From NCBI GenBank assembly GCA_938028625.1, contig CALIZB010000035.1:1-62115 (forward strand): a stretch of 62,115 bases of DNA. The letters run 5' to 3'. This DNA is from an uncultured Bacteroidia bacterium. GTDB taxonomy: Bacteria; Bacteroidota; Bacteroidia; JANWVE01. A program made the position numbers and the translations under genes. A model generated the notes under the pieces. The model worked only from the letters and a program-made list of their open reading frames with translations, made no database searches and was not told the origin of the DNA. This document shows positions 630-43,567 of the stretch, in pieces. Within the stretch, counting starts at the first letter, position 1. Each line of letters begins with the position of its first letter.

Positions 630-730
630 GGGCGTGTCCTTCACTTCGTTCAGGTCGGTGCATTCCGCACTTCGCTAGCGCTTCGGTGCTACGCACAGGG
701 TTAATGCCCTTGCTTCATGCCCCTCACGCA
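630..730 (-). repeat. GC-rich modular hairpin repeat, copy A
   Basis: One of four related intergenic elements in the window (others at 3931-4051, 34144-34272, 43453-43567). Read on the minus strand it begins TGCGTGAGG, ends GGACACGCCC and carries the shared block GCACCGACCTGAAC. Its distal hairpin is short: arms CCTGAAC/GTGAAGG with a GAA loop and tandem G-A mismatches. This copy is the most diverged, and its centre differs from the others. It lies between dapD and rsmE and supplies a false upstream ATG for rsmE at 717. Confidence 0.8.
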
Positions 731-746
731 ATTTTATCTTACAATT

Positions 747-1448
747 ATGGAACTATTTTACACTACTGACATAGATTTTCCTTATTTATATCTACAACAT
801 GAAGAAGCTATACATTGTATTAAATCTTTACGAAAAAATATAGGAGATTACATTCACATAACTGACGGATTAGGTAATCACTATTACGGAATAATTACGC
901 AAATAGAAAGAAAAAAGGATATTGTTACCGTACACGCACAAAAACAACAAAATTTTAATAAAAGTCAAAATTTAGGCTTATGTATAGCACCTACTAAAAA
1001 CATAGACAGAATGGAATGGTTGATAGAAAAAGCTGTAGAGTTAGGTGTTTCTCAAATACAATGGATAATTACTGAACGTTCTCAAAGAAAAACCATTCCA
1101 TTAGAACGTATGCAACGCATAGCTATATCGGCAATGAAGCAATCTTTGCAGTATTTTTTACCGAATTTTTATCCTATCATAAACTTTTCAAGTTGGTTAG
1201 AACAACAAAAAATTTTGCAAGGAGTAATTGGATATTGTGGTGAAGATATAGATAAAAAACCTTTGAATACTCTACAAATCACAAATAAACAAAATACATA
1301 TTGGATTTGCATAGGACCCGAAGGGGATTTTACTCAAAATGAAGTAAAACAATCCCTGAACACAGGATTGATACCTGTTTCCATAGGCACACACAGACTG
1401 CGCACCGAAACCGCCGCCTTAACAGCTATATCTTATTTCTATCTATAA
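747..1448 (+). CDS. rsmE: RsmE 16S rRNA m3U1498 methyltransferase
   Basis: SPOUT-fold methyltransferase that N3-methylates U1498 of 16S rRNA using S-adenosylmethionine. The 233-residue product has the family layout: an N-terminal PUA-like barrel (about residues 1-70, with LRKNIGDYIHITDG) and a C-terminal trefoil-knot domain carrying IGPEGDFT and LRTETAA, which form the SAM pocket. I chose the ATG at 747 because the ten extra residues of the longer frame from 717 are encoded by the end of a dispersed repeat, and homologues begin near MELFY. It stands alone between dapD and the convergent dapA. Length is normal for the family. Confidence 0.92.
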   Translation: MELFYTTDIDFPYLYLQHEEAIHCIKSLRKNIGDYIHITDGLGNHYYGIITQIERKKDIVTVHAQKQQNFNKSQNLGLCIAPTKNIDRMEWLIEKAVELGVSQIQWIITERSQRKTIPLERMQRIAISAMKQSLQYFLPNFYPIINFSSWLEQQKILQGVIGYCGEDIDKKPLNTLQITNKQNTYWICIGPEGDFTQNEVKQSLNTGLIPVSIGTHRLRTETAALTAISYFYL

Positions 1449-1516
1449 AAAAATTGTGTATTTTCAATCTAAATGAACACTAAACGCTACAAACTTGCCA
1501 ATCATCTCGTAATTCC

Positions 1517-1687
1517 CTACCGTTTTACTTTATAACTTCCTCTATGCACAATACATCTTTTACCGCAACTATTACAAGCAAATGTAACATAGGTTTGCTT
1601 TTGTAAAGTTTTATCCTGCTGATAATAGCTTAAAATTTGTTCTCGGGCTTTTGCCAAACTTGCGCGGGTGAAGGTAAGAAACCATAT
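1517..1687 (-). pseudogene. Short coding-like remnant with Cys pair, downstream of dapA
   Basis: Read on the minus strand, a frame of 56 codons has no ATG but a protein-like composition, including LAKAREQILSYYQQ and then TFACNSCGKRCIVHRG before a TAG stop. The CNSC plus CGKRC arrangement looks like part of a zinc ribbon. The frame opens after a TGA at 1688-1690 and nearly abuts the dapA stop. It could be the C-terminal stub of a decayed gene. The family is not recognised and chance is not excluded. Confidence 0.3.
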
Positions 1688-1699
1688 TCAGTCAATGGT

Positions 1700-2605
1700 T
1701 TAGCCGAGATTAAAATAATCATTTACTTTTTTGAGTTTTTTCTGCAATTCGCTGTAATATCCGTCTGATGCAGGTACTAACGGAAGACGTACATTTTTCA
1801 AACAAATGCCCATGATTTCTAATGCGGCCTTTACCCCCACAGGATTGCCTTCTGCAAATAAAAAGTCCATACATTCCAATAATCCATAATGGTATTCACG
1901 GGCTTTTTCATAATCTCCTGCCAATGCAAAACGTACTTTTTGGCTTACTTCTCTCGGAAAAATATTGCCTGCCACAGAAATAACGCCTACTGCACCTACA
2001 CTCATAAAAGGTAAAGTTAAACTATCATCACCTGAAACTACTAAAAAATCTTTGGGTTTTTGAGCAACAATGTTCATTACTTGCACTACACTTCCTGCCG
2101 CTTCCTTGACAGCAACAAGGTTTTTATGGTCATTTGCTAATTTGATTATAGTTTCAGAGGTCATGTTAATTCCTGTACGCGGAGGAATGTTATACATGAT
2201 AATTGGCAAATCTGTACTTTTTGCAATGGCAGAATAATGGGCATAAATTCCGTTTTGATTAGGTTTATTGTAATACGGGCAAACCGATAAAATGCCATCT
2301 AATCTGTAATTTTTAGTGTAGTATTCTATTTCTGATATAACTTCTTGCGTATTATTACCCCCTATACCCATTATCACAGGCAATTTACCTTGATTAGCTT
2401 CCAGAACAGTTTCTATAACTGATTTTTTTTCATCTTTGGTTAATGTAGGGCTTTCTCCTGTTGTTCCTATGGGGACGATATATTCTACTCCCCCTTCCAC
2501 TATACGAAAAACCAATCTTTGCAGGGCTTTTGTATCTACCTTATTCTCATTTGTAAAGGGGGTAACTATGGCAACCCCTGTTCCTTTGATATAACTTGTG
2601 TTCAT
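1700..2605 (-). CDS. dapA: 4-hydroxy-tetrahydrodipicolinate synthase DapA
   Basis: Condenses pyruvate with aspartate semialdehyde, the first committed step to diaminopimelate and lysine. The 301-residue product is a TIM barrel with the class I aldolase features of the family: GTTGES at 47-52, the tyrosine pair in CPYYNKP (111-112), Tyr138 in YNIPPRTG and the Schiff-base Lys167 in VAVKEAAGS. All are present, so it should be active. Its start overlaps the end of the upstream DUF6913 gene by four bases (ATGA), indicating translational coupling. dapD, acting later in the same route, is in the same window but on the other strand. Confidence 0.97.
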   Translation of the reverse strand: MNTSYIKGTGVAIVTPFTNENKVDTKALQRLVFRIVEGGVEYIVPIGTTGESPTLTKDEKKSVIETVLEANQGKLPVIMGIGGNNTQEVISEIEYYTKNYRLDGILSVCPYYNKPNQNGIYAHYSAIAKSTDLPIIMYNIPPRTGINMTSETIIKLANDHKNLVAVKEAAGSVVQVMNIVAQKPKDFLVVSGDDSLTLPFMSVGAVGVISVAGNIFPREVSQKVRFALAGDYEKAREYHYGLLECMDFLFAEGNPVGVKAALEIMGICLKNVRLPLVPASDGYYSELQKKLKKVNDYFNLG

Positions 2606-3129
2606 GGTTTTATTTTTTGTAAATAATGGATAATAGAAAGTAAATTTTCATCAGTGATATGTTCGTACACATTTGGAATAACGAGTTCGTAACAGTCCCA
2701 GTTACTATCATGGATACCTACCCGCATAGTAATGTCAATAGCACAGCCAAGATACTGAGCAGCAACATTATCTTTGTCTGTAAGGTCTATAGATACGTCA
2801 AAATGCTGGTCTATAAAGCCATCAACGGCAGAAGTTTTAGGTATGCCAAGCAGATTGGTATGCGAACCGTCTATACGTGTACGTTCATACGTATACGGAA
2901 GCAAAGAGGTTTCTTTTTTGCTTTTCAAAAACTCTACGGTTTTAACCCGTACAGTATGTTTTTTTAACAGGTCTATAAAACGGGCAATAACAGTGGCTTC
3001 TTCAGCGGCGCGCGGCGAAACAAAGAGTATAAAACTTTTGATATCCTGCCATGCAATACTGGAATGCGCAAAGTGTTTTTTATTGTGCAATCTTCTGAAC
3101 TGAAGTCTTTGAATTATCTTGAAAGGCAT
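2602..3129 (-). CDS. DUF6913-type protein coupled to dapA
   Basis: A soluble 175-residue protein without signal peptide or membrane segment. It resembles the Bacteroidota family DUF6913, whose members commonly sit immediately upstream of dapA; I recognise it from that placement and from the general pattern (an RRLHNKKHF-like basic N-terminus, then an alpha/beta segment with FILFVSPRAAEEA, and NWDCYELVIPN near the end). The last four bases overlap dapA. No catalytic motif is evident, and function is unknown; linkage suggests a connection with diaminopimelate supply, which is inference only. Confidence 0.75.
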   Translation of the reverse strand: MPFKIIQRLQFRRLHNKKHFAHSSIAWQDIKSFILFVSPRAAEEATVIARFIDLLKKHTVRVKTVEFLKSKKETSLLPYTYERTRIDGSHTNLLGIPKTSAVDGFIDQHFDVSIDLTDKDNVAAQYLGCAIDITMRVGIHDSNWDCYELVIPNVYEHITDENLLSIIHYLQKIKP

Positions 3130-3209
3130 ACGAATACAAGCAAATTAAAGTAAAAAATATTAAAATTCCATAATTTTTAGGTATTTTTATTGATACAACA
3201 GACGATAAT

Positions 3210-3863
3210 CTATTGAGTGATTGCCCAGTAGACAATGTTTGTTCCCATTTTGAGAGCTTGCTGTCGTACAGGTTCGGGGTCATTGTAAATTTCTTGGTCT
3301 TCCCAGCCATTTCCTAAATCACATTCATAGCTGTAAAAGCATACTAATCTGCCGTCATGAAAAATACCGAAGCCTTGTGGAGGTTTGCCGTCATGTTCAT
3401 GCACTTTGGGCAGTCCTTTTGGAAACGAGAAGGGTTTCTTATAAATCCCAAAATCAAAAGGAAGTTCTACAAAATCATGTTCAGGAAATACTTTTTTCAT
3501 TTCTCTACGAATGTATTTATCTAAACCATAATTGTCGTCAATATGTAAAAATCCTCCTGAAATAAGATAGTTTCTTAAATTCTGAGCTTCTGCATCTGTA
3601 AAAAATACATTTCCATGTCCTGTAAGATGTACCCACGCATACTGAAATAACGCAGGACTGCCTACTTCCACAATATCCTCTTTTTCATGTACTTTAATGA
3701 CAGAATTTTGGTTAATAAACTTAATCAGATTAGGTAAAGAAGTGCGATTACAATACCAGTCACCTCCACCGCCATATTTTAGTTTAGCTATTTTGAATGT
3801 ATTATTCTGACACAAGCCCCATGCTAATCCAAAAAAGAGTATTATGCAAAGTATCTTTTTCAT
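3210..3863 (-). CDS. DUF4159 secreted protein
   Basis: A 217-residue protein with a signal peptide (MKKILCIILFFGLAWGLCQ) followed by a DUF4159 domain: the KLKYGGGGDWYCN opening, LTGHGNVFFTDAEAQNLRNYLISGGFLHIDDNYG in the centre and GWEDQEIYNDPEPVRQQALKMG near the C-terminus are typical. DUF4159 adopts a class I glutamine-amidotransferase-like fold without known chemistry. It is usually found near MoxR/DUF58 genes in Bacteroidota, and here a DUF58 gene lies about 1 kb upstream on the same strand. Probably periplasmic. Identity is good; function is unknown. Confidence 0.85.
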   Translation of the reverse strand: MKKILCIILFFGLAWGLCQNNTFKIAKLKYGGGGDWYCNRTSLPNLIKFINQNSVIKVHEKEDIVEVGSPALFQYAWVHLTGHGNVFFTDAEAQNLRNYLISGGFLHIDDNYGLDKYIRREMKKVFPEHDFVELPFDFGIYKKPFSFPKGLPKVHEHDGKPPQGFGIFHDGRLVCFYSYECDLGNGWEDQEIYNDPEPVRQQALKMGTNIVYWAITQ

Positions 3864-3930
3864 GATACAAAGTTAAGAATAATCTGCAAATTCAGTAGCC
3901 GAAATCCTGTAAAAACCGTGTATTATCCAC

Positions 3931-4051
3931 TGCGTGAGGCATGCGAAGGGTATGCGTTAGCATAGTGCCTTGCACCGTAGCAAAGCGTAGCCCGTAGCAC
4001 GCCGACCTTGCACGCATGAGCATTAGCGAAACGCTGTGCAAGGACACGCCC
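3931..4051 (+). repeat. GC-rich modular hairpin repeat, copy B
   Basis: Starts TGCGTGAGGCATGCG, passes through GGGTATGCGTTAGCATAGTGC and GCGTAGCCCGTAGCACGCCGACC, and ends in a hairpin with perfect 8-base arms CCTTGCAC/GTGCAAGG followed by GGACACGCCC. Closest to copy D at its left end and to copy C at its right end. It lies in the 210-base gap between the minus-strand DUF4159 and DUF4905 genes. Confidence 0.88.
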
Positions 4052-4073
4052 AAATTAAAACCTAAAAAATATA

Positions 4074-4895
4074 CTATTGAAAAGAATAGATATGCAGATT
4101 ATCAGGATATTGTACAAAAAACAAGTGATTTTGATACATATAAAAAGTATCTACGGCAAAACGATGTACGTTCTGTGCTAAACAGACTTCACACAGTTTT
4201 TTATCCTGTAAAGTATTGTATATCACAAGATAGTTGTTCATGCTAGTTTGTGTAGCATCTTTATTCATACTGTAATAACTCAAAATGTGATTTTCCTGAT
4301 AGTTTAGATATTCAGAATAGTGGAATTTAAGCAATGGGGCAAACGTTCTAAAAAAAGTGAGGTGTTCTTTGTTTTCGGGTTTATCCAATAAAACAGACTG
4401 TGGAAATCGCATTTGTTCAAAGGCATCTAATTCTAAATTTTCAGCTTCTTGAATGATGTGAATAGGGATTTGCTCACCAAATTGCTGAATAATTTTACCT
4501 GAAAAATCTAATTCCACAAACTGCCGAAGCCCTTCCTGTGTGAGATAATGCGCAAGAATACTGAAATTTGTTTTTTTTAGCCATGAAAGCTGGGGCTGTT
4601 CCCATAAAAGCATCCTGCTACGAATATCATACGCATATATGCCGTAGTGTTCAGGAATTTCAGGACTACGATACTGATGTGTGTATATAATACCGTTATG
4701 CACATCTTCTATACCTATTAACCAAGGTTCATGCAGTATCCAGTCTGTTACGGTTTGTTTTTGTGTGGCAAGGTCAATAACATGAAAAGAAGTAGTGTAC
4801 TCTGCTCCGTTACGAACTTCTATCACTGCTAAATGCTGACGGGTATCTACACGGACTTTCCATATATTCCCTTTGAAAGAATAAGAATGCAACAT
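4074..4895 (-). CDS. DUF4905-like protein
   Basis: A 273-residue cytoplasmic-looking protein with no signal peptide or membrane helix. The beginning (YSFKGNIWKVRVDTRQHLAVIEVRN) and alternating beta-strand pattern suggest a small propeller-like fold; the sequence resembles DUF4905, a Bacteroidota-restricted family. The ATG at 4895 is preferred because there is no credible upstream Met. It starts four bases downstream of the DUF58 stop on the same strand and so forms an operon with it. No catalytic motif is visible and no function can be given. Confidence 0.7.
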   Translation of the reverse strand: MLHSYSFKGNIWKVRVDTRQHLAVIEVRNGAEYTTSFHVIDLATQKQTVTDWILHEPWLIGIEDVHNGIIYTHQYRSPEIPEHYGIYAYDIRSRMLLWEQPQLSWLKKTNFSILAHYLTQEGLRQFVELDFSGKIIQQFGEQIPIHIIQEAENLELDAFEQMRFPQSVLLDKPENKEHLTFFRTFAPLLKFHYSEYLNYQENHILSYYSMNKDATQTSMNNYLVIYNTLQDKKLCEVCLAQNVHRFAVDTFYMYQNHLFFVQYPDNLHIYSFQ

Positions 4896-4899
4896 GATT

Positions 4900-6210
4900 T
4901 TACAACAAAGATTTGGCTTTAATAGTTAGATATTGATTGATAGCTTTGGCTGTTAAATTCTCGGGAAGGGTATCCAAGGTTAAGACGTTATTTAATTGTA
5001 GATATTTGAATGCTAATAAACGTTGTTCTAAAATTTGTTCTGCTACACCGAGTTGTAAAGCCTGTTCTCTGGTTTTGGGAACTTCCAGAGTTACTTTGTG
5101 TAGTTCTTTATCGCGTAAAGTAACGCACAGGGGCAGATGTTTGGGAGAAAGGCGTGTAAATTCGCGTATAAGTACATCAGAAGCACGGTTATCAATAATG
5201 TCCGTAATCAGTATAATCAATGCTCTTTTATTTACTTTTTTCTTGATATACTGGAAGGCAAGGGAATAATTAGGTTCAGTCATCTCATACTGAACGTTAT
5301 GTAAAAGTTGAGAAATAGCATGTACTTGGGTGATACCTCTTTTGGGTGGCAGATAAGTTTGTATATTTGCACCAAAAACTAAAAGTCCTATATTGTCTTC
5401 TTTGTTTGCACAAATGTAACTTAACATAAGCGTTGCATTGATAGCATAATCTAAACGTTTCATAAAACCGTCAGAATTGCGCATCATACGTCCTGCATCT
5501 AATACTATAATTACATTCTGATTGCGTTCTATCTGATACTGTGCTACTATGGGTTTACCTTTTCTTGCGGTAGCTTTCCAGTTAATTTTGCGGTATTCGT
5601 CATCTTTGGTATATTCTCTTAGACTTTCAAATTCCCGTCCTTCGCCATATTTGCGGATACTTCGCCTGCCTACCTGTTCTAATTGATTTTTTCGTGCTAA
5701 TAACTGATATTTTTTGAGTTTGAGGTATCCTGGATATACAGAGAAACTATTTTCTAATGAATACTCATAATCTTTCCGAACCAATCCGAGTATGCCCAGA
5801 ATGCGCAGATGGACAGTTTGGTACTCATACTTTCCGCGTTCACGCGGGGTAATAGTATAGGTAAAGGTTTGTACTTCGTTTCCCTGAATACCAAAAGGAA
5901 ATATAGCATCACGAATTTGAAAAAATTCAGGCACATCATCTCCCAGAAAGCCTTTCCAATACCGTTTGCTCTTATTATGTAAAGACAAAATGATTTCATT
6001 TTCATCACCCAAAGAAAGTTTTTGAGCTAGCTCCCTACTGATTTCAAATTTTTCTTTGCCTGGAATAAGGCGATAGTCTATAACCATAAAAATTGCCCAT
6101 ACTAAAATGATAACAAAAGCTACAGCTAATAAAAAACTCCAGAAAAAGCTTAGCCCCATACAGGCTACGGCTATGAGTAAAATTAAAAAGGTTCTGTGCG
6201 TGAACGTCAT
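4900..6210 (-). CDS. DUF58 domain protein (MoxR-associated)
   Basis: A 436-residue membrane-anchored protein. Two hydrophobic helices occupy about residues 5-45, then a beta-rich segment, then the DUF58 signature RKYGEGREFESLREYTKDDEYRKINWKATAR, then a von Willebrand A-like domain (VIIVLDAGRMM) with a degenerate metal site. DUF58 proteins accompany MoxR AAA+ ATPases in membrane or periplasmic protein maturation; no moxR is in this window. I chose the ATG at 6210, because the longer frame from 6228 starts at a TTG with no support. It forms an operon with the DUF4905 gene four bases downstream. Confidence 0.9.
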   Translation of the reverse strand: MTFTHRTFLILLIAVACMGLSFFWSFLLAVAFVIILVWAIFMVIDYRLIPGKEKFEISRELAQKLSLGDENEIILSLHNKSKRYWKGFLGDDVPEFFQIRDAIFPFGIQGNEVQTFTYTITPRERGKYEYQTVHLRILGILGLVRKDYEYSLENSFSVYPGYLKLKKYQLLARKNQLEQVGRRSIRKYGEGREFESLREYTKDDEYRKINWKATARKGKPIVAQYQIERNQNVIIVLDAGRMMRNSDGFMKRLDYAINATLMLSYICANKEDNIGLLVFGANIQTYLPPKRGITQVHAISQLLHNVQYEMTEPNYSLAFQYIKKKVNKRALIILITDIIDNRASDVLIREFTRLSPKHLPLCVTLRDKELHKVTLEVPKTREQALQLGVAEQILEQRLLAFKYLQLNNVLTLDTLPENLTAKAINQYLTIKAKSLL

Positions 6211-6285: not shown

Positions 6286-6294
6286 TTTGAGATA

Positions 6295-8324: not shown

Positions 8325-8355
8325 TTGACTACTTTCAATACTTTATCTATGTTTG
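8325..8355 (+). promoter_or_regulatory. Promoter of the SBBP-repeat gene
   Basis: TTG at 8325-8327, 20-base spacer, TATGTTTG at 8348-8355. The TTG inside the -7 element is the first codon of the longest reading frame of the downstream gene, which argues that this longer start is spurious. Confidence 0.75.
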
Positions 8356-8394
8356 CAAAATATATTTTATTCTAACAATTACATATCAATTATC

Positions 8395-11013
8395 ATGAAA
8401 CATATATTTTTACTTTCAGTACTTTTTATACTTTCTTCGCAAGTACAAGCAGAAATCTCTACTCATTTTTTCATAGAAAATAAAGGTCAGTGGGATAAAG
8501 AAGTACTATATTTATGCCGCATAAACGGGCTAAATGCTTGGATTAATAAATCAGGAGTTACATACGATTTTCACAAGTGGAAAAAGCTCAACCGTTTTGA
8601 TGTGCAGTTTATAGATAATAAAAATGACCATTATATCCAATACGGGCATATTATCAAAGTAAATCATGTAAATGCCAATGCAAATCCCTGTTCTGAAACA
8701 AAACAAAAAAATGATGCTTACTACAACTATCTTGTTGGGAATAATCCTGAAAAATGGGCAAGTTATGTTGGTCTATATCAAGAAATTATTGTCAAAAATA
8801 TTTACGAAGGTATAGACCAAAGATGGTATTTTGATGAAGGCAATTTGCGTTATGACTATATTGTATCACCTCTTGCGGATTATAAGAAGATACAACTTTC
8901 TGTACAAGGTTCAGATAAATGCCAAATTAAAGAAAATGATTTAGTATTTAACACCATTTTTGGAGAAGTCCGCCAGTGTAAATTATTTGTCTATCAAAAT
9001 ATTGATGGTGTTAAAAAAGCAGTTCAAGCTAAATGGATACAAAAAAATGAGCATTTTAGCTTTGAGTTAGGTAACTATGACTCTCGCTATCCTTTGATTA
9101 TTGACCCCTTAATTTGGAGTACATACATAGGCGGCACGGCTGATGACCACCCGTGTGATGTTACTCGTGATATTTTTAATAATGTATATATAACAGGTTA
9201 TACTGCATCTGCTTCTTATCCTACTACGGCAGGAGTGTATGATAATACTCATAATGGAGGAGGTTCATACCCGCATGATGTTTTTGTAAGCAAATTAAAT
9301 TCAACGGGAACAACATTATTATACAGTACTTTTATTGGTGGAAGTCAGGGAGAAGTAGCCGAGAAAATAGTAGTGAATAATGCCGGTAATGTATATCTTA
9401 CAGGGGGTACTACATCCTCTGACTTTCCTGTAACCGCGGGCGCGTATGACACTACCTACAACGGTGATGGATTTGCAAGCTGGATATGGGGTGATGTGTT
9501 TATTTTACAACTCAATGCCACAGGTTCTGCTTTGGTATTTTCTACTTTTGTAGGTGGTGATATGGATGACGTAGGCAGAGCTTTATATGTAGATGCTAAC
9601 GGAGATATATATTGTGCAGGTGCGGCAAGGTCTAATTTTCCTGTTACCGCAGGGGCTTTTGATACTGTTTATAGTTTTGGACCTTATGACGGTTTTATAT
9701 TAAAAATGAACGCCACAGCTACCGCACTTATTTACTGTACCTATTACGGCGGTTCAGGTAATGATACAGCTAATGGCATCACCGTAGATGATTCAGGCAA
9801 TGCGTATGTAACAGGAAATACTCATTCCACAGATTTTCCTACCACAGCAGGTGCTTTTGATACTTCTTTTAATGGAGTTTATGATGGATATGTGCTTAAA
9901 ATAAACCCAACAGGAACGGCATTAGTATACTCTACATTCATAGGAGGACCTAATGAGGATAGGCATCTTGGAATTGTGTTAAAAGGTAATTATAACATTG
10001 TTATCGCAGGATTTAGTAACTCTGCTAGTTACCCAACCACAGCAGGCGCTTATGATACTTCTCATAACGGGGATTATGATGTAGTGCTTACAGAAATTGA
10101 TGCCATAGGTAGTAGTTTAGTATATTCTACATACATGGGAGGATTTGGTCCCGATATGGGGTTATGTATAACACAAAGTTTTTCAGGATTTATTTATGTA
10201 TCAGGGTACGCTAATGCAGGTTTTCCAACCACAGCAGGTGCTTATGATACTTCACACAACGGCGACGAAGATGTATTTATTGCCATATTTAACCCTTCTT
10301 TGAGTAGTTTATTATATTGTACCTATATCGGGGGAATTAGCTATGACCGTGCCACAGGAATAATTACTGATAATGCAGGTTATCCCATTGTTACAGGTAG
10401 AACATATTCCCTAGATTATCCTACTACGGTAGGGACTTATGATGTTACCCATAATGGCGCGATGGACGGCTTTGTAACTAAACTTGACCCTTCTATACCT
10501 TTACCCATAATTTCTTTTACTTTGTCTGCAACGTTTGAGCAGAATAATACTGTTCAGTTACAATGGCAATATGCAGGAGCAGAGAAAGCACATCAATACA
10601 GCATAGAATACTGTACCTCTGAACAGCCCACATGGCAGTACCTGACAAATACCCATGAGTCACAATATACAGATGAAATAGCTGTACAACAAACCATTCA
10701 ACAAGGTAAAAACAGTTTGCTCTACAAAGTTAAAGCACTGAATAAAGACGGAGTAACCCTTGTAGAGCAAGTTCAGGAAGTACAGTTATTCAACCATTCA
10801 ACTCTTATACTCTATCCAACCCTGAATAATGGCAGTTTTACCATTCAAAGTTCCTTAAATACAGAAGTAATTATCATAGATATGCAAGGTAAAATTGTTT
10901 TTAGTACTCATATTCAGTCAGGTAAAAATGAACTGCAAATTCCTCTTTCCAAAGGTGTATACTACCTGAAAGCAAGAGATATTCCTGCTGTACAAAAACT
11001 TACAGTATGGTAG
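8395..11013 (+). CDS. SBBP-repeat secreted protein with T9SS type A sorting tail
   Basis: An 872-residue surface or secreted protein. Order: signal peptide (residues 1-20), an N-terminal DUF7948-like domain starting FFIENKGQWDKEV, then a series of SBBP repeats of roughly 55-60 residues (about residues 240-700, each with TTAGAYDTSHNG, a D-x-x-x-x-K/L strand, and LVYSTYIGG), a fibronectin-like segment, and a C-terminal type IX sorting domain (LYPTLNNGSFTI through GVYYLKA). SBBP repeats form a beta-propeller. The ATG at 8395 gives a clean signal peptide and lies 39 bases after the -7 element. The histidine kinase gene follows after 47 bases on the same strand and may be co-transcribed. Confidence 0.9.
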   Translation: MKHIFLLSVLFILSSQVQAEISTHFFIENKGQWDKEVLYLCRINGLNAWINKSGVTYDFHKWKKLNRFDVQFIDNKNDHYIQYGHIIKVNHVNANANPCSETKQKNDAYYNYLVGNNPEKWASYVGLYQEIIVKNIYEGIDQRWYFDEGNLRYDYIVSPLADYKKIQLSVQGSDKCQIKENDLVFNTIFGEVRQCKLFVYQNIDGVKKAVQAKWIQKNEHFSFELGNYDSRYPLIIDPLIWSTYIGGTADDHPCDVTRDIFNNVYITGYTASASYPTTAGVYDNTHNGGGSYPHDVFVSKLNSTGTTLLYSTFIGGSQGEVAEKIVVNNAGNVYLTGGTTSSDFPVTAGAYDTTYNGDGFASWIWGDVFILQLNATGSALVFSTFVGGDMDDVGRALYVDANGDIYCAGAARSNFPVTAGAFDTVYSFGPYDGFILKMNATATALIYCTYYGGSGNDTANGITVDDSGNAYVTGNTHSTDFPTTAGAFDTSFNGVYDGYVLKINPTGTALVYSTFIGGPNEDRHLGIVLKGNYNIVIAGFSNSASYPTTAGAYDTSHNGDYDVVLTEIDAIGSSLVYSTYMGGFGPDMGLCITQSFSGFIYVSGYANAGFPTTAGAYDTSHNGDEDVFIAIFNPSLSSLLYCTYIGGISYDRATGIITDNAGYPIVTGRTYSLDYPTTVGTYDVTHNGAMDGFVTKLDPSIPLPIISFTLSATFEQNNTVQLQWQYAGAEKAHQYSIEYCTSEQPTWQYLTNTHESQYTDEIAVQQTIQQGKNSLLYKVKALNKDGVTLVEQVQEVQLFNHSTLILYPTLNNGSFTIQSSLNTEVIIIDMQGKIVFSTHIQSGKNELQIPLSKGVYYLKARDIPAVQKLTVW
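9118..10490 (+). repeat. In-frame SBBP repeat tract
   Basis: Tandem coding repeats with a period of roughly 170-190 bases within the SBBP gene. The phrases PTTAGAYDT and STYIGG recur, and the DNA around ACCACAGCAGG(T/C)GC is itself strongly conserved between units, pointing to recent duplication or gene conversion in the central copies. Confidence 0.8.
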
Positions 11014-34143: not shown

Positions 34144-34272
34144 GTGTCCTTGCACAGCGTTTCGCTTGCACTCATGCGTGCAAGGTCGGCGTGCTACGGG
34201 CTACAAAACATAATGGTGATTGAGTAGCGATGGCGTACCGAAATCACGCACACCCTCCGCATGCCTCACGCA
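34144..34272 (-). repeat. GC-rich modular hairpin repeat, copy C with replaced centre
   Basis: Minus-strand ends match copies B and D: TGCGTGAGGCATGCGGAGGGT at one side and TAGCCCGTAGCACGCCGACC plus the hairpin CCTTGCAC/GTGCAAGG at the other. About 45 bases in the middle (34206-34250) are unrelated and include GATTTCGGTACGCCATCGC. It lies between convergent TonB-receptor and rdgB genes. Confidence 0.85.
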
Positions 34273-36844: not shown

Positions 36845-38107
36845 ATGATAGTTACCATTTTAGTTATTTTTATCGTGGGATATGCTTTGATTTCCGTAGA
36901 GCATGCTGTAAGTATCAATAAAACCGCTACGGCGCTCATCATGGCAGGTATATGCTGGATATGCTATAATGTGTATGTAGGAGATATACATGCTGTAATA
37001 CCCAAATTAAGTCATCATTTATCTGATATTGCAGAGATTATGCTCTTTTTAGTAGGGGCTATGACTATCGTAGAACTCATAGACTCTCATAACGGATTTC
37101 AATTTATTGTAGACCAGCTGCACATAAAAAGTAAACGAAAACTCTTATGGGTAGTGGCTTTTATTTCTTTTTTTCTCTCTGCTATTTTGGATAATCTTAC
37201 TTCTTCTATTGTGATGGTGTCTTTACTTCGTAAATTTATTGGTAAAGCGGAAGATAGAAAGTTTTTTGCAGGTATTATTATAATTGCCGCTAATGCAGGA
37301 GGTGCATTTAGCCCCATTGGAGATGTTACAACTACTATGCTTTGGGTAACGCAAAGAATATCTACAACGGAGGTTATTTTTCGTTTATTTCTACCCAGTC
37401 TAACCTGTCTTTTAGTACCTTTAACGTGGTTACATTTCAGGATAAAAGGAGAAATTACTCCACCTGAACAGAATATATTAGAAGAAGAAAAGAAAATAAA
37501 AGGCAGTCTACTGATGCTCATTCTTGGAACAGGTATTTTATTAGCTGTACCTACTTTTAAGACCATTACGCATCTGCCGCCGTATTTAGGTATGTTATTA
37601 GGTTTAGGCTTGATATGGTTAGTAGCCGATGTTATACACAAACACGAAGAACAAGAAGATATACAAAAACTCTCTGCTAATTATGCACTTACTCGTATAG
37701 ATGTACCCAGTATATTATTCTTTTTTGGTATTTTGGCAAGCGTAGCTGTTTTAGAAGAGGTTCATATTTTATCTCAATTTGCAGAAAAACTCAATACTGT
37801 TATTCCCTCTGAAAAGGGAGTTGCTTTGATATTAGGTATAGTTTCGTCCATAGTAGATAACGTGCCTTTGGTAGCCGCATCTATGGGCATGTATTCTATG
37901 CAAACCTACCCTATGGATTCAAGTTTCTGGCATTTGATTGCGTATTGTGCAGGTACAGGAGGAAGCCTTCTTGTTATAGGTTCTGCCGCAGGAGTAACCG
38001 TTATGGGCATGGAAAAAATTACTTTTTCTTGGTACCTCAAAAACATGTCAGGACTAGCGCTAATGGGATATTTAGCAGGTATTTTAGTGTATATTCTCTT
38101 ATTTTAA
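36845..38107 (+). CDS. nhaD: NhaD-type Na+/H+ antiporter
   Basis: A 420-residue polytopic membrane protein of the IT/ArsB superfamily, NhaD group, exchanging Na+ (or Li+) for H+. It begins with VGYALISVEHAVSINKTATALIMAG, has SAILDNLTSSIVMVSLLRKFI with the conserved Asp-Asn pair, ANAGGAFSPIGDVTTTMLW, and a second symmetric half with VSSIVDNVPLVAASMG and CAGTGGSLLVIGSAAGVTVMGME. All the polar ion-path positions appear intact. About 11-12 helices. It lies just downstream of GT2. Confidence 0.93.
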   Translation: MIVTILVIFIVGYALISVEHAVSINKTATALIMAGICWICYNVYVGDIHAVIPKLSHHLSDIAEIMLFLVGAMTIVELIDSHNGFQFIVDQLHIKSKRKLLWVVAFISFFLSAILDNLTSSIVMVSLLRKFIGKAEDRKFFAGIIIIAANAGGAFSPIGDVTTTMLWVTQRISTTEVIFRLFLPSLTCLLVPLTWLHFRIKGEITPPEQNILEEEKKIKGSLLMLILGTGILLAVPTFKTITHLPPYLGMLLGLGLIWLVADVIHKHEEQEDIQKLSANYALTRIDVPSILFFFGILASVAVLEEVHILSQFAEKLNTVIPSEKGVALILGIVSSIVDNVPLVAASMGMYSMQTYPMDSSFWHLIAYCAGTGGSLLVIGSAAGVTVMGMEKITFSWYLKNMSGLALMGYLAGILVYILLF

Positions 38108-38149
38108 TACCATTCGGAAAACTTACTTTAATTTTTTTGTTCCTATAAC

Positions 38150-39586
38150 ATGGATAAAATTAACCTTGTGTGGCTAAAAAGAGATATTCGCACCCAAGAC
38201 CATGAACCGCTTCACCTTGCAGAACAACACAACTTACCTTACCTAATCCTGTTTATTTTTGAACCGCTAATTATTCAATATCCTGATGCCTCTCCGCGCC
38301 ATTTACAGTTTCAATATCACTGCATTAAAGAAATGAATGAAACACTATATTCATTTGGACATAAAGTACATGTTTTTTATGGTGATGCTATACATATTTT
38401 TGAGTTTTTAACCCAAAAATATGAAGTAAAAAACATATTCAGTTATCAGGAAACAGGCTTAAATCACACTTTTGAACGGGATAAAAAGCTAAAATTATTT
38501 TTTCAAAGTAAAGGTATACAATGGCAGGAAATTCAAAAAGCAGGAGTACAAAGAGGTTCTTTGTATGTAAGAGAAAAATGGCAAGAAAATTTTCAAGGCT
38601 ATGTAGATAAACCTGCTATAAACAATACTTTTTCATCAGAAAAAACAATTCTATTAACACATAACCCTTTTGAGTTACCGTTTTATCTTCAAAATAATCT
38701 ACAAAACTATCCCTCACAATATCAGCCTGCGGGAGAAAAATACGCATGGAAGTACTTAACCACTTTTGTAAAGGAAAGAGGCATAAAATACATGCAGAGT
38801 ATATCCAAACCACAGGAAAGCAGATACCACAGTAGCAGACTATCACCGTATCTTGCATGGGGAAGTTTGTCCATAAGGCAAGTGTATCAAACTGTTATTC
38901 AAAGTGAAAATTATGTCAGATACCCAAGAAGTTATGAAGCATTTATCTCGCGTTTATGGTGGCAGAGTTACTTTATCCAAAAATTAGAAAAAAAGCCAAA
39001 CTATGAAACGAACTGCATTCAACCTGCTTTTGAAGATATACCATTCGGTCAAGATGAAGTAAAGTTAAACGCATGGAAAAAAGGTAAAACAGGCATTCCA
39101 CTCATAGATGCGTGTATGAGATGTTTACATTCAACAGGATGGATAAACTTCCGTATGCGTGCTATGCTTGTATCTTTTTTATGCCATTATCTTGAAATAG
39201 ACTGGAAATTAGGCATGTATCATTTAGCACAACTTTTTTTAGATTATGAACCAGGTATACACTATCCCCAGTTTCAGATGCAGGCAGGTGTTTCTGGCAA
39301 TCCTATTATCAGAGCATACAACCCCATCAAACAAAGTAAAGAAAAAGACCCCGATGCTATATTTATCAAAAAATGGCTTCCTGAACTCTCTCTTTTGCCC
39401 AAAGAACTTATTCATGAACCGTGGAAAATCAGTAGCATAGAAGCAAAAATGTATAACTTTTCATTAGAAAAAGATTATTGCAATCCTATCATTATTCCTG
39501 AAAAAGCAGATTTTACCTTGCTTAAAAAACTATGGAAAATAAAAAAACTTATCAAGAGCAATAAACCCGAAATAAAGCAGGAATAA
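38150..39586 (+). CDS. Cryptochrome/DNA photolyase family protein
   Basis: A 478-residue flavoprotein. The N-terminal alpha/beta domain (INLVWLKRDIRTQDHEPL) binds an antenna pigment, and the C-terminal helical domain has the FAD-binding signatures SRYHSSRLSPYLAWGSLSIRQVY, AFISRLWWQSYFIQ, TGIPLIDACMRCLHSTGWINFRMR and DWKLGMYHLAQLFLDYEPGIHYPQFQMQAG. It repairs pyrimidine dimers with light, or acts as a light sensor; sequence alone does not separate these. The usual WFRRDLR start is altered to WLKRDIR. A short gap separates it from uppP. Confidence 0.9.
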   Translation: MDKINLVWLKRDIRTQDHEPLHLAEQHNLPYLILFIFEPLIIQYPDASPRHLQFQYHCIKEMNETLYSFGHKVHVFYGDAIHIFEFLTQKYEVKNIFSYQETGLNHTFERDKKLKLFFQSKGIQWQEIQKAGVQRGSLYVREKWQENFQGYVDKPAINNTFSSEKTILLTHNPFELPFYLQNNLQNYPSQYQPAGEKYAWKYLTTFVKERGIKYMQSISKPQESRYHSSRLSPYLAWGSLSIRQVYQTVIQSENYVRYPRSYEAFISRLWWQSYFIQKLEKKPNYETNCIQPAFEDIPFGQDEVKLNAWKKGKTGIPLIDACMRCLHSTGWINFRMRAMLVSFLCHYLEIDWKLGMYHLAQLFLDYEPGIHYPQFQMQAGVSGNPIIRAYNPIKQSKEKDPDAIFIKKWLPELSLLPKELIHEPWKISSIEAKMYNFSLEKDYCNPIIIPEKADFTLLKKLWKIKKLIKSNKPEIKQE

Positions 39587-39598
39587 ATAAATCTTCTT

Positions 39599-39606
39599 TA
39601 CCTTTG
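39599..39606 (+). promoter_or_regulatory. -7 element of uppP, four bases before ATG
   Basis: TACCTTTG ending at 39606 with the ATG at 39611. No clear -33 TTG at standard spacing. Confidence 0.5.
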
Positions 39607-39610
39607 TGGC

Positions 39611-40402
39611 ATGAGCGTTATTCAAGCCATTATTTTAGCTATTATTGAAGGTATTACGGAGTTTTTACCTATCTCTTCTACGGGACACATGATTATTGCT
39701 TCTTCCTCTATGGGCATAGCAGAACAAGATTTTACTAAAACCTACACCGTAATGATACAGTTTGGAGCTATTTTATCCGTGTTAGTTTTGTATTGGAAAC
39801 GCTTAATTCAAAGTATAGATATTTATTTCAAATTAGCTTATGCATTTATCCCTACGGCTATACTCGGTTTTTTACTCAATGACGTGATAGATAATTTATT
39901 AGAAAGTCCGCTTACAGTAGCTATTACGCTTATTCTAGGGGGAGTTATTCTTATTTTTGTAGACAAATGGTTTAAACAACCCGAAAAAGAACCTGAAACG
40001 TTGAATTTAAATCCTGTTTCAGCTGTAAAAATTGGCTTATTTCAAGCTATTTCAATGATTCCTGGGGTTTCAAGGTCTGCGGCAAGCATTATTGGCGGTA
40101 TGATAGTCGGTTTAACTCGCAAACAAGCCGCTGAATTTTCATTTTTACTCGCCATTCCTACTATGTTCGCCGCCGCAGGATACAAACTGTACAAATATCT
40201 TAAACTCATGAAACAAAATGCCACCTCTCTTTCTGATACAGATTTTATCAATTTAATTGTAGGTAATCTTGTAGCTTTTATCGTAGCCGTGATAGCTATT
40301 AAGGCATTTATTCATTTACTTACAAGATATGGCTTTAAATGGTTTGGTGTGTATAGAATTATTGTAGGCGTTATTATTTTGGCAGTATTACTTTTGAAAT
40401 AA
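39611..40402 (+). CDS. uppP: Undecaprenyl-diphosphatase (BacA/UppP)
   Basis: A 263-residue, eight-helix integral enzyme that removes a phosphate from undecaprenyl diphosphate to recycle the lipid carrier. The two active-site motifs are present: EGITEFLPISSTGHM (residues 14-28) and PGVSRSAASI (about 154-163), with the Glu-rich and Arg positions intact. It also contributes to bacitracin tolerance. Thirteen bases separate it from the SpoU methylase. It is a natural partner of the lipid-linked sugar transferases in this window. Confidence 0.96.
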   Translation: MSVIQAIILAIIEGITEFLPISSTGHMIIASSSMGIAEQDFTKTYTVMIQFGAILSVLVLYWKRLIQSIDIYFKLAYAFIPTAILGFLLNDVIDNLLESPLTVAITLILGGVILIFVDKWFKQPEKEPETLNLNPVSAVKIGLFQAISMIPGVSRSAASIIGGMIVGLTRKQAAEFSFLLAIPTMFAAAGYKLYKYLKLMKQNATSLSDTDFINLIVGNLVAFIVAVIAIKAFIHLLTRYGFKWFGVYRIIVGVIILAVLLLK

Positions 40403-40415
40403 GATAAATCTTAAC

Positions 40416-40958
40416 ATGGCTGACGAACTTGAAAAACTCAAATTAGATGCATTAGGGCGACTTTCCATAGAAGAGTTTAAGCAAAGTAATAAGTTTCCCG
40501 CAGTAGTTGTATTAGAAAATGTGCGTTCTGCTATGAACGTAGGCGCTATTTTTCGCACTGCTGATGCTTTTGCCATAGAAAAACTTTACTTATGTGGGTA
40601 TACACCTACGCCCCCGCATAAAGACATCATGCGTACCGCACTCGGTAGTGTAGAAAGTGTAAATTGGGAACATCACGCAGATACACAAACCGTTCTTAAT
40701 GTGCTTAAAAATCAAGGCTATACAATTTGTGGAGTAGAACAAACTAATAAAAGTATAGAGCTACAAAATATCTCTATAATGCCCAAAGTAGCTTTTATTG
40801 TAGGCAATGAAGTTGACGGAGTAAATGAAGAAACTTTATTACAATGTGATGCTATCCTAGAAATTCCGCAGTTTGGGACAAAACATTCTCTAAATGTAAG
40901 TGTAGCTACGAGTATTGTTTTATGGCACTGGCTTTATGTTTCCCAAATCCAAAAATAG
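40416..40958 (+). CDS. TrmH/SpoU-type RNA 2'-O-methyltransferase
   Basis: A 180-residue SPOUT methyltransferase with the three SpoU motifs: NVRSAMNVGAIFRTADAF, FIVGNEVDGV and LNVSVATSIVLWHW. The short length without an N-terminal RNA-binding domain resembles TrmL- or TrmH-like tRNA methylases; the target nucleotide is not determined by sequence. The 3' end overlaps the convergent bshC by 25 bases. Confidence 0.9.
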   Translation: MADELEKLKLDALGRLSIEEFKQSNKFPAVVVLENVRSAMNVGAIFRTADAFAIEKLYLCGYTPTPPHKDIMRTALGSVESVNWEHHADTQTVLNVLKNQGYTICGVEQTNKSIELQNISIMPKVAFIVGNEVDGVNEETLLQCDAILEIPQFGTKHSLNVSVATSIVLWHWLYVSQIQK

Positions 40959-42463
40959 GGTTCAGTAATAGGTTTTTGCAAAATATTTTCCCAAAGTGTG
41001 TTACCATATATTGCATACGTGCTTAAATAGCTAAATATGCGTTCCTGCCACTTTCCATAAGGTAAAACGGCATCATACAAATCGGTTATTTTTTGAGTAA
41101 AAATGCTTTCTCTTTTTTGTGTTTCTTTACGAATTTTGGTATAAAAGTGCTTCCATTGCTTTTCTATGCGGGTTACAGTTGCCATAGCGGATTGTTCCAA
41201 ACCTAATTTTTGATTTCGTGCAAAATGAAGTAAAGCAGTATTAAAATGCTCTAACTGCTGTTCTAACTCTGTAAATTCTTTATTTTGAGATACTTGTTTT
41301 TCAAAATATCTTGCTATAAATGCGTTTTTTTGAGTATTAAGCAAAGTAAGCAAGTCTAATTTGTATTTTTGTAAAGCAGAAATTTGTTTTGTAGACAGCT
41401 GAACACCAAAATAACGCGGTACTAATACAGGAAATGGCACTTGAAAGGCTTCAAACGTAGATTTTATCTGTAACCAATACGCAATCTCCGTAGGTCCGCC
41501 GATATATGCTATATTAGGAAGTATAAGCTCTTGGTAAATAGGTCTTAACAAAACATTTGGGCTAATATGCTGCGGTTTATTTGGATTGATAACATGAATA
41601 TCATTATTCCATTTCTCGCGCAGATTATTTTGATAAATGTAAAAAAGATTGACTCTATTAGGATTAGCATACGTTTTATAGCCTGATGCGTGTAATTCAT
41701 CAATAGTTTTTAGAACCGTTTTGTAAGTTACATTTTCTTTGATTTCTTTTTCTGCAATCGGTAAAAATTTAGCTTTTAATTCGGGTACATGTGCATCTAA
41801 AACTAATATGCCAAGATGTCCAAATAGTTTTTGAATAAATAAACGTATGGCTTGGCTTAGTGTAAAATTAGATGTAAAGCATTGAGAGAGAAGTTGATTT
41901 GTATGATTAGCATATAATCCTTTGTCTAATGTATTGAAAAGTATTTCCAACGTATTCTCAATATTATACAAAGGTAAGTTACCTGTAATTCCTTGATAAT
42001 TGGTAGGATAGTGAATTTTCTCTCTGTCTGCGTATAAGGTTTGAATTTCAGCTACATCATGGTCTTCGGAAGCTAACCAGAATATAGGTACAATTTTGTA
42101 CTTATCTGATTGATTTTGCAAGGTGCGTGTATATGCAACCGTTGCCAAAATTTTATATGCAACAAACCAAGGTCCTCCAAAAAGACACAGTTGGTGTCCC
42201 GTAGTAACAGTAAAGGTATTTTCATTCTTTAGAGCAAGTAGATTTTGTTTTTGTTCAGGATACAGAGAAATATCTTGATACTGCTTTGTTAAAACAGTGT
42301 ATAGAGTATTACGGTCTATATTTTTATGCTTTTGCAGTTGTATAAGCGTTTCAATAGATGCCGTAGCATAATGTGCATTGTAGTAAGGTTGTAGCGTTTC
42401 TGAATTTTGTATGTAATCACGAAATAAATTCGGAAGTGCGTTTATTTCACTGAGAGAAATCAT
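40934..42463 (-). CDS. bshC: Bacillithiol synthase BshC
   Basis: A 509-residue cysteine-adding enzyme that joins Cys to glucosaminyl-malate in the last step of bacillithiol synthesis. Characteristic segments are TGHQLCLFGGPWFVAYKILATVAYTRTLQ, VPIFWLASEDHDVAEIQTLY and IAYIGGPTEIAYWLQIKSTFEAFQVPFPVLVPR, plus a C-terminal coiled coil. bshA and bshB are not in the window. Its presence implies this organism uses bacillithiol as its main low-molecular-weight thiol. It is convergent with the SpoU gene (25-base overlap). The four-helix gene precedes it by nine bases on the same strand. Confidence 0.95.
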   Translation of the reverse strand: MISLSEINALPNLFRDYIQNSETLQPYYNAHYATASIETLIQLQKHKNIDRNTLYTVLTKQYQDISLYPEQKQNLLALKNENTFTVTTGHQLCLFGGPWFVAYKILATVAYTRTLQNQSDKYKIVPIFWLASEDHDVAEIQTLYADREKIHYPTNYQGITGNLPLYNIENTLEILFNTLDKGLYANHTNQLLSQCFTSNFTLSQAIRLFIQKLFGHLGILVLDAHVPELKAKFLPIAEKEIKENVTYKTVLKTIDELHASGYKTYANPNRVNLFYIYQNNLREKWNNDIHVINPNKPQHISPNVLLRPIYQELILPNIAYIGGPTEIAYWLQIKSTFEAFQVPFPVLVPRYFGVQLSTKQISALQKYKLDLLTLLNTQKNAFIARYFEKQVSQNKEFTELEQQLEHFNTALLHFARNQKLGLEQSAMATVTRIEKQWKHFYTKIRKETQKRESIFTQKITDLYDAVLPYGKWQERIFSYLSTYAIYGNTLWENILQKPITEPYFWIWET

Positions 42464-42472
42464 ATTTTAATT

Positions 42473-42871
42473 TTAAGGTGTATTTTGTGCATTTTTACTT
42501 TGTTCTATTGTCCATTTCATAAGATATTTGACTTCAAATACCGTAAAAATAAGATATGTAACAAAAAAAGCTACTACAAATTGTACTTTGAAAGGTTTAT
42601 ATTGCCATATACAGATGAGGGTAGCAGTTATACTCAACGCAAACTTAATGAGCATACTACTGATAATCTTATTCATAAATTGATAATGTTGAGTATTCTG
42701 TATTCCTTGGTAGATTATCCATGTAGAGAGTACAGCAATAGTGCCTGAGGTGAGTACAGCAATGCTAGCGACCCATATTCCCACCTGGTCAGCCCATAGA
42801 TAAAATATAGGTAACAAAATAAGTGTAGTAATCAAAATGAGTAAAGACAGGTTTTTAAGGTAATTTTTCAT
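42473..42871 (-). CDS. Four-helix membrane protein, AtpI-like
   Basis: A 132-residue protein with four hydrophobic segments (SLLILITTLILLPIFYLW; VASIAVLTSGTIAVLSTWIIY; MLIKFALSITATLICIW; FVVAFFVTYLIFTVFEV). The pattern and the C-terminal FEVKYLMKW recall the AtpI-like protein that sits before F0F1 ATP synthase genes in some Bacteroidota, but no atp genes are here, so this is tentative. The ATG at 42871 is seven bases from a -7 element (42879-42886). It forms an operon with bshC. Confidence 0.6.
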   Translation of the reverse strand: MKNYLKNLSLLILITTLILLPIFYLWADQVGIWVASIAVLTSGTIAVLSTWIIYQGIQNTQHYQFMNKIISSMLIKFALSITATLICIWQYKPFKVQFVVAFFVTYLIFTVFEVKYLMKWTIEQSKNAQNTP

Positions 42872-42893
42872 ATTTTCGCAAAAATACAGAAAT

Positions 42894-43379
42894 ATGCACA
42901 CACTTTGGGCAGAGATAATAGTTAGTATAGGTTTATTGCTGATAAAACATGATTTTCATGCGTCTATGACAAAAATAGAGTATTCTACTAAAAATCAGTC
43001 TTTGCAGTGTATTATGCATGTATTTACTGATGATTTAGAACTTGCTCTATCTAACTTTCACCAAAGAGAAATAAAATATCAGGAAAATAAAACAGATACC
43101 GAAATTATACCTTACTTGAAAAGTGTTTTTATAGTGAGAACAAACAAAAATAAAATCTTACCAATAGAATACATAGGTTCTGCTCGCAAACCTAATACCG
43201 TGCAACTTTACTTTGAATTACCTTGCTCCAAAAGCGAACTAAAACAACTTTCTATCACGCATAGTCTACTTTTTAATGAATTTAACGACCAAGTAAATAC
43301 TATCAATTTTTATGTACTTGGCGAGAAAAAAAGTTTGGTATTTACTAATTCCGAAGGCACAAAGGTGATAACATTTTGA
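42894..43379 (+). CDS. DUF6702 family protein
   Basis: A 161-residue exported or envelope protein. The opening after a short hydrophobic N-terminus reads KHDFHASMTKIEYSTKNQSLQCIMHVFTDDLELAL, the pattern of DUF6702 in Bacteroidota (Hx-F-x-S-x-T-x-I-x-Y ... FTDDLE). The remaining sequence alternates beta-strands, including KPNTVQLYFELPCS. Function is unknown. The gene diverges from the four-helix gene; the two start codons are only 22 bases apart, so their promoters interlock. Confidence 0.75.
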   Translation: MHTLWAEIIVSIGLLLIKHDFHASMTKIEYSTKNQSLQCIMHVFTDDLELALSNFHQREIKYQENKTDTEIIPYLKSVFIVRTNKNKILPIEYIGSARKPNTVQLYFELPCSKSELKQLSITHSLLFNEFNDQVNTINFYVLGEKKSLVFTNSEGTKVITF

Positions 43380-43452
43380 TAAATGAGTATTTTTTGTCTA
43401 AAATTGAGTAATTAGCTTAACAATAGATTTGAATTTTTTTGAGGGTTAGAGT

Positions 43453-43567
43453 TGCGTGAGGCATGCGGAGGGTATGCGTTAGCATAGTGCGAAGCACCGC
43501 AGCGTGAGCGTAGCCCGTAGCACGCCGACCTGAACCCTGAGCTTGCCGAAGGGTGAAGGACACGCCC
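43453..43567 (+). repeat. GC-rich modular hairpin repeat, copy D
   Basis: Starts TGCGTGAGGCATGCGGAGGGTATGCG and ends GGACACGCCC like copy B. The distal hairpin differs: arms CCTGAACCCT/AGGGTGAAGG with two central G-A mismatches. It lies between convergent DUF6702 and CdiI-like genes. Confidence 0.88.

Follow-up and report, generated by a model that had tools for sequence, protein, structure and literature searches.

The window analysed here is a stretch of 62,115 nucleotides (contig CALIZB010000035.1) from an uncultured Bacteroidia bacterium, and it contains four short repeats, about 100-170 nt long, to which we gave the family name E. We concluded that E is probably the basic piece of a non-coding mobile DNA family, which spreads as solitary copies and also forms inverted pairs, 3ʹ ends outward, that serve as the ends of larger units. 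The evidence comes from the window's own genome (G000) and from two other genomes of the same genus (G001 and G002); reciprocal best protein hits among the three had a mean identity of about 70% (71% between G001 and G002). E is apparently undescribed in the open-access literature searched, subscription journals lying outside that search.

The four window copies (E1 to E4, Table 1) had been placed by a first-pass annotation, and a profile made from 150 copies found them again at the same coordinates and on the same strands, with E-values from 7e-14 to 6e-27. This was a re-finding and not an independent discovery, as three of the four were among the loci of the model's 30 seeds, and all four were also among the copies scored with the covariance model. 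The annotation had further proposed common ends and a common inner block. The left end TGCGTGAGG was indeed present in all four copies, but each longer sub-motif was present in three: both the inner block CGTAGCACGCCGACCT and the full right end were found in 3 of 4 elements. With up to three mismatches allowed, the inner block had three matches in the window against 0.09 expected. The left block and the right end alone are weaker evidence, as their loose matches (3 and 5, respectively) were each reached by 1 of 100 shuffles. E1 carries GCGGAATGCACCGACCT in place of the inner block and lacks the CATGCG left block, and the final bases of E3 are gone (GGACACaatc in place of GGACACGCCC). As to their placement, the elements had been described as intergenic and paired. 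E1 overlaps an open reading frame (ORF) called at 717-1448, but it can be taken as intergenic because the start codon of the G001 orthologue corresponds to the ATG at 747; with this start correction all four lie between genes. They are not paired, since neighbours stand about 3, 30, and 9 kb apart.

The first-pass annotation had held that the family reading would fail if only these four copies, and no common structure, turned up in the genome. The outcome favoured a family: G000 holds about 58 copies, and they have a covarying fold. BLAST with E2 gave 42 matches in G000, a few of them pieces of one element, and the covariance model gave 57. A 14-base left-end pattern occurred 58 times in G000, 1,321 times in G001, and 242 times in G002, and the reversed pattern, used as a control, 4, 45, and 5 times; for the order, the search covered these three genomes. 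In the DNA examined we counted 47 E in 652 kb of G000, 370 in 637 kb of G001, and 69 in 386 kb of G002, where the count takes in the core-deleted forms described below, read as partial E. The G001 density is thus about 580 copies per Mb, and by rough arithmetic E-E units make up about a seventh of the G001 DNA examined.

Beyond the genus, BLAST found no match in 37 other class members. With stricter filters and at most nine matches scored per genome, the covariance model had matches in 25 of the 395 genomes of the class; of the 392 that lie outside the genus, 22 were positive, with a best score of 69 bits. Among the matches listed, the exact pattern was found at at least three loci of Fibrobacter intestinalis ATCC 43854 and at least one locus of a Fibrobacteres metagenome-assembled genome; these four loci scored 68-78 bits with the covariance model. 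One element searched against 50,697 phage records and one against 72,556 plasmid records gave no match, and no viral contig carried E by one exact pattern. That Bacteroidia and Fibrobacter have this fold in common suggests a family of wide occurrence, absent from Rfam.

E folds into one multibranched structure, whose own ends are joined by a closing stem, GCGTG/CACGC. The stem encloses a long arm and small hairpins, together with a 3ʹ hairpin that varies between copies. In the alignment of copies, whole arms and hairpins were exchanged as complementary sets, which bears out the modular make-up seen at first pass; the inner module of E3, GTGATT...AATCAC, also occurs in one further aligned copy (L021). 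Among 30 copies, RNAalifold gave 26 pairs, 11 of them with compensatory changes. In an alignment of the best 150 of 204 matches, which was made to the model and so leans towards it, 98.8% of 3,733 cells were paired, with 14 pairs showing double changes and 310 double-change cells, whereas shuffling gave 90.7%, 8.8 pairs, and 75 cells, and sliding the partners left 23-48% paired. The single-strand DNA fold of E2 was -29.2 kcal/mol (z -3.0), and none of 200 shuffles was as stable. The fold of E is well supported.

The pair types were 3,680 Watson-Crick, 10 G-U, 5 A-C, and 38 other. G-U thus made up 10 of 3,690 pairs (0.3%), whereas 19 distinct tRNAs of the same DNA set had 19 of 225 in their acceptor and T stems. 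This near-absence of G-U points to folded DNA, rather than RNA, as the constrained form. A constraint at the DNA level, or correction of imperfect palindromes by template switching, would explain it better than a constraint on RNA, but we regard it as a trend and not as proof because related copies are not independent.

Mobility of E is also well supported. At the site orthologous to E1 in G001, only 7 bp lie between the same two genes and the element is absent. Likewise, one G001 unit is absent from the orthologous gene-gene overlap in G000. In 35, 54, and 30 syntenic gene-pair comparisons for the three genome pairs, E was present only at these two sites and at the gene pair of L122/L144, which has elements in both genomes. 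E was found in both orientations and between unrelated genes. The absence of target duplication, noted at first pass, held in 153 units and 123 solitary copies, which showed no excess of 4-8 bp repeats over shuffled flanks. The 3ʹ side of E is rich in A (67-84% at the first six positions in 45 G000 copies, against an intergenic background of 35%), and the empty E1 site in G001 has no A-run. Of 47 copies in G000, 33 are on the strand opposite to the one that carries most genes of the surrounding stretch. Another element candidate in the synteny comparison, at L173, was found not to be an E.

In G001, neighbouring copies alternate: 156 pairs have their 5ʹ ends facing, 156 have their 3ʹ ends facing, and 18 are in tandem. 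Among the 5ʹ-facing pairs, whose 3ʹ ends point outward, the core between the elements is at most 360 bp in 149 of 156, 320-350 bp in 108, and 335-339 bp in 74. The corresponding core in G002 is 106-108 bp in 14 of 18 pairs. In G000 the six 5ʹ-facing pairs stand 2.8 to 12 kb apart, and E there is therefore solitary. The cores of G001 are homologous to one another (54 cores, mean identity 75%) and contain internal repeats; they matched at 36 places in G002 and at no place in G000, with 40 candidates scored per genome. The unit ends are inverted terminal repeats, TTTTTGGGCGTG...CACGCCCAAAAA, and the left and right arms differed in subtype in all 11 G002 units inspected. Two side observations concern the cores themselves. 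AT-rich G001 cores (L085:4883-5229 and others) are made of repeated inverted motifs TTTACCTTGT...ACAAGGTTAAA, and G001 core lengths cluster near 130, 195, 265-276, and 337 bp, which looks like growth by steps of about 68 bp.

G002 also contains a core-deleted form, in which the core is missing, each arm has lost its inner half, and two outward 3ʹ halves meet across the joint CCGCAC/GTAGCC. There were 12 of these in 386 kb (91-106 bp as matched), and the joint was exact in 11. The search pattern demanded this joint with at most three changes, other joints not being sought, and it found none in the examined DNA of G001 (637 kb) or G000 (652 kb). The recurrence of a single deletion suggests that the core-deleted form multiplied once it had arisen, and that in cis nothing beyond the outer 3ʹ halves is needed. 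Small non-autonomous mobile elements, like miniature inverted-repeat transposable elements (MITEs), had been among the first-pass suggestions, and this one gained support from the copy-number differences, the occupied and empty E1 site, the dispersed units, and the single-joint core-deleted form.

Some units in G001 and G002 enclose nuclease genes. Rpn-like genes are multi-copy in all three genomes (40, 19, and 16 matches), and 30 loci were examined, with ORFs called by length and without a gene finder. Among the 18 distinct loci in G001 and G002, the gene lay inside an outward E pair at all eight that were visible on both sides. By comparison, ordinary ORFs of at least 150 amino acids (aa) lay within 400 bp of both pair members in 0 of 383 cases in G001 and 1 of 267 in G002 (the ORF at L117). 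Close homologues of an AAA-ATPase/PDDEXK_9 protein in the same two genomes had E at 11 of the 12 loci with one side visible. Looked at from the side of the pairs, G001 has seven 5ʹ-facing pairs longer than 360 bp, of which two hold an ORF of at least 90 aa, one Rpn-like and the other AAA-ATPase/PDDEXK_9. G002 has four longer pairs, one with an Rpn-like gene and one (the L122 unit) with an AAA/PDDEXK_9 gene whose ORF call extends into the left E.

The eight Rpn units have unrelated surroundings, as no outer flank was common to two loci. Inside, six of them align at 75-95% along the whole unit or stretches of it, and the other two (L210 and L218) align only mutually, at 77%. Three G001 units are joined to the spacer at one and the same internal point. 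Sequence identity between an Rpn protein of G001 and one of G002 is 92%, compared with the 71% average of reciprocal best hits. The Rpn-like members matched TIGR01784 in 5 of 9 cases (best E-value 7.9e-9; one score of 28.6 bits lies below the cut-off of 52.1) and PF04754 weakly in 1 of 9 (E-value 0.0011). Residues D10, D58, E76, Q78, and R88, invariant in 9 of 9 aligned members, match the residues named for RpnA, D11, D63, E82, Q84, and R94 (PMC5350276, in the part drawn on here); the order is the same and the spacing nearly so, with identical E-to-Q and Q-to-R spacing. They include the putatively catalytic D...ExQ core. The AAA-ATPase_like/PDDEXK_9 protein of L144 passes the Pfam cut-offs (PF09820, 159.3 bits; PF08011, 56 bits). 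Neither the Rpn-like nor the AAA cargo protein had a match in PADLOC. RpnA is described as a nonspecific endonuclease of low activity; it reportedly promotes recombination independent of RecA, and its sites of action are called hard to identify (PMC5350276). A preprint, as excerpted, presents Rpn as a toxin-antitoxin phage defence (PMC10327210). A defence role of the Rpn cargo is therefore possible.

Other observations were made at these loci. Many Rpn-like genes are present at G000 loci L192-L217; they often stand in tandem or at a contig end, have no E nearby, and in several cases carry a promoter-like TATTTTTGTGC motif just upstream. At L117:7360-9810 in G002, an E on one side and a core-deleted form on the other enclose an 816-aa ORF that matched nothing in Pfam or PADLOC.

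We propose the following explanation. The whole length of E would fold, as single-stranded or cruciform DNA, into the multibranched structure, with the GCGTG/CACGC stem joining its ends beside the A-run. Single elements would spread alone, as in the window, and two inverted elements with their 3ʹ ends outward would serve as the ends of a larger unit, in the manner of a composite transposon. What such E-E units contain is either a fixed core without coding sequence or a gene, for an Rpn-like nuclease or for an AAA-ATPase/PDDEXK_9 protein, and a further unit type has lost the core and the inner halves. The folded DNA and the outer 3ʹ ends would be what an enzyme recognises. Most speculatively, the PD-(D/E)XK protein inside the units might be that enzyme, acting in trans on solitary E, for example in G000. 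These proteins are mover candidates by position only, because DDE, tyrosine recombinase, and other HUH families lay outside the searches.

A bolder version takes E as the DNA end of a transposon of a categorically new kind, with long multibranched ends worked by the Rpn and AAA/PDDEXK_9 proteins, in which E-nuclease-E units are autonomous and E-core-E units, core-deleted forms, and single E are moved in trans. We consider this version unlikely. Rpn proteins have long been labelled putative transposases, and if the bolder version were true that label would be literally correct, with its substrate named.

Several observations weigh against the proposed explanation. On the fold, further standard pair types were not raised over shuffles (29 against 28.9), and E4, E3, and E1 fold only moderately to weakly above shuffles (z -2.2, -1.5, and -1.0). 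On insertion, both empty-site comparisons are between species and show extra flanking differences, because of which the exact insertion product is not readable. Of 45 solitary G000 copies with a neighbour within 400 bp, 40 have a stop codon on their 3ʹ side, an orientation that the proposed explanation would not lead one to expect. The strand of E in G000 has no tie to GC skew (24 of 47), so that mobility through the lagging strand is unsupported. On the nucleases, Rpn loci in G001 and G002 visible on one side have an outward E at 8 of 10, with none at L213 and another orientation at L215. AAA/PDDEXK_9 loci visible on two sides are bracketed in 2 of 4, a third having one E, and two distant homologues (29% identity) have no E bracket. 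Inside the G002 pairs L110 and L117 the genes are of an ordinary or unannotated kind, namely OmpA and radical-SAM genes in addition to the 816-aa ORF, and the core-deleted form stands at one or both borders. No such nuclease was found at the 13 E-bearing loci examined from other genera and Fibrobacter. Finally, none of 10 Rpn loci and none of 12 AAA/PDDEXK_9 loci in G000 had E in the visible flanks. Because these loci are free of E, the spread of E in G000 needs no linkage, and Rpn genes multiply without E; the mover is unproven, since E is solitary there and its Rpn loci lack it.

These last points lead to the strongest alternative, which we rate just short of an even chance: the Rpn and AAA/PDDEXK_9 genes are passengers, or arrived in E-E units by their own mobility, and another unrecognised enzyme moves E. 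It would account for both families being multi-copy and E-free at the G000 loci examined, for two different nuclease families at the same position, and for the G001 Rpn junction, which fits insertion into the 337-bp spacer. It does not fit so well with the finding that, in the DNA examined from two species, only these two families lie inside pairs with a full E on both sides, or with the Rpn unit having been dispersed entire, bounded on its outside by E.

A REP-like element moved by a transposase of the RAYT/IS200 type (REP, repetitive extragenic palindrome; RAYT, REP-associated tyrosine transposase) had been suggested at first pass. The search for Y1_Tnp (PF01797) went against it, being negative in all three genus genomes (91-99% complete), even though G001 has about 1,321 copies; the same search was positive in 5 of 14 control genomes. 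E might still be an atypical REP family whose Y1 (HUH) TnpA-REP mover has since been lost from the genus. The lack of target duplication, the intergenic sites, the inverted pairs, and the DNA fold would all suit an HUH mover, and a published 'double foot', made by central deletion of an inverted REP pair, is much like the core-deleted E (PMC6006769). In the part of that source used here, TnpA-REP subclass 2.6 is mostly from Bacteroidetes; 'atypical secondary structures' flank its genes and recur at other places in the genome (PMC6006769). We regard this subclass as the nearest published lead. However, Y1 was present in only 13 of the 22 other E-bearing genomes, and only 1 of 30 Y1 loci examined from these 13 genomes had an E-like match, a weak one, about 10 further Y1 places lying outside the sample. 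The exception, in another class member, is a divergent E-like structure of 25.8 bits at L376:2134-2277, about 280 bp from the Y1 gene. We therefore hold this alternative to be improbable.

The first-pass suggestion of a structured RNA is doubtful: the copies share a covarying fold, but G-U is nearly absent and Rfam had no match. Over the window Rfam gave nothing at the gathering score, and in seven related loci nothing at an E-value of 1; two matches around E2 with E-values near 4 were both outside the element. As an alternative, E would be an RNA, or a structure at the 3ʹ end of mRNA, with a site function such as stability or termination, spread by mobility and kept by selection. The strong covariation agrees with this, as does the stop-facing orientation in G000, by which the structure follows the stop codon in that mRNA, and the position opposite the majority gene strand. 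The rarity of both G-U and A-C argues against it, as does a copy number that differs more than 20-fold between congeners. The orientation bias was weak in G001 (194 facing a stop, 146 a start) and not significant in G002 (36 and 23), and an equal bias would follow if T-rich DNA behind genes were the preferred target. The orientation could thus come from target choice or from a role after genes, and the alternative as a whole seems to us more doubtful than a lost Y1 mover. A plain terminator reading was dropped, since in the neighbouring mRNA the T-run precedes, and does not follow, the structure.

Retroposition, in which an E RNA like a short interspersed nuclear element (SINE) would be copied into A/T-rich sites with the A-run as its tail, would suit the A-rich 3ʹ side of most copies and the missing A-run at the empty E1 site, but it is very hard to believe, given no reverse transcriptase match (PF00078) in the three genus genomes (3 of 14 controls positive), no target duplications, and few G-U pairs.

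Table 1. Elements of the E family in the window and the parts resolved within and beside them.
Feature	Coordinates	Strand	Evidence
E1, solitary E; GGGGCATG/ATGCACC arm type, short 3ʹ hairpin	630..730	-	alignment, profile; element absent at orthologous G001 site
E1 A-rich 3ʹ flank, on minus strand TGAATAAAAAAGAA	616..629	-	A at 67-84% in 45 G000 copies against 35% background
E2, complete solitary E	3931..4051	+	BLAST query, profile; single-strand DNA fold
E2 closing stem, 5ʹ side GCGTG (partner 4045-4049)	3932..3936	+	covariation, fold
E2 closing stem, 3ʹ side CACGC	4045..4049	+	covariation, fold
E2 A-rich 3ʹ flank	4052..4066	+	flank composition of G000 copies
E3, solitary E; alternative inner module GTGATT...AATCAC, decayed 3ʹ end	34144..34272	-	alignment, profile
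E4, complete solitary E; ACCCTGAGCTTGCCGAAGGGT 3ʹ hairpin	43453..43567	+	BLAST, profile
E4 A-rich 3ʹ flank	43568..43579	+	flank composition of G000 copies

Two other features of the window were observed. A CDI immunity-like protein (CdiI_3, PF18616; 43599-44039) directly adjoins E4. The ORF at 8353-11013, coding an 886-aa repeat protein, contains seven copies of a 42-nt repeat at a spacing of 192-213 bp (9216-10457).

Among known systems, E is comparable first with REP and REPIN sequences and their RAYT (TnpA-REP) transposases, which are also short folded intergenic repeats, often in inverted pairs and at high copy, and in which core deletion of an inverted pair likewise gives the 'double foot' form (PMC6006769, as far as drawn on here). 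However, E is 100-170 nt long and multibranched, whereas a REP is a single hairpin of 21-65 nt with a GTAG/GTGG foot (a foot was not formally scored in E). Also, the E-richest genomes had no Y1 transposase match, and E pairs hold fixed cores and genes. The CGTC-tagged REPs resemble E as palindromic repeats found in several phyla including Bacteroidetes and, according to the part of the source used here, without a dedicated transposase, but they are short single hairpins with stems of 8-9 bp (PMC3733652); E has several branches and the conserved blocks GCGTGAGG...CCGACC...CACGCC.

MITEs and composite transposons share with E the inverted ends, the non-coding cores, the occurrence of units with and without genes, the internal deletions, and the high copy number. 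E differs in that its ends are long folded structures, no target duplication was found, and no transposase was identified in searches that did not include the DDE families. Recombination of a folded strand has a known example in integron attC sites, which have R and L boxes and are recombined by the IntI integrase.

E fills a large share of one genome, yet neither of the movers tested, Y1 transposase and reverse transcriptase, matched there. For the Rpn (YhgA-like, Transposase_31) nucleases, no DNA ends are named in the part of the published account used here (PMC5350276), whereas E brackets copies of their genes in two species. These bracketed copies provide a concrete candidate substrate, and the bracketing of nuclease genes by the E family may help to show how such repeats move.

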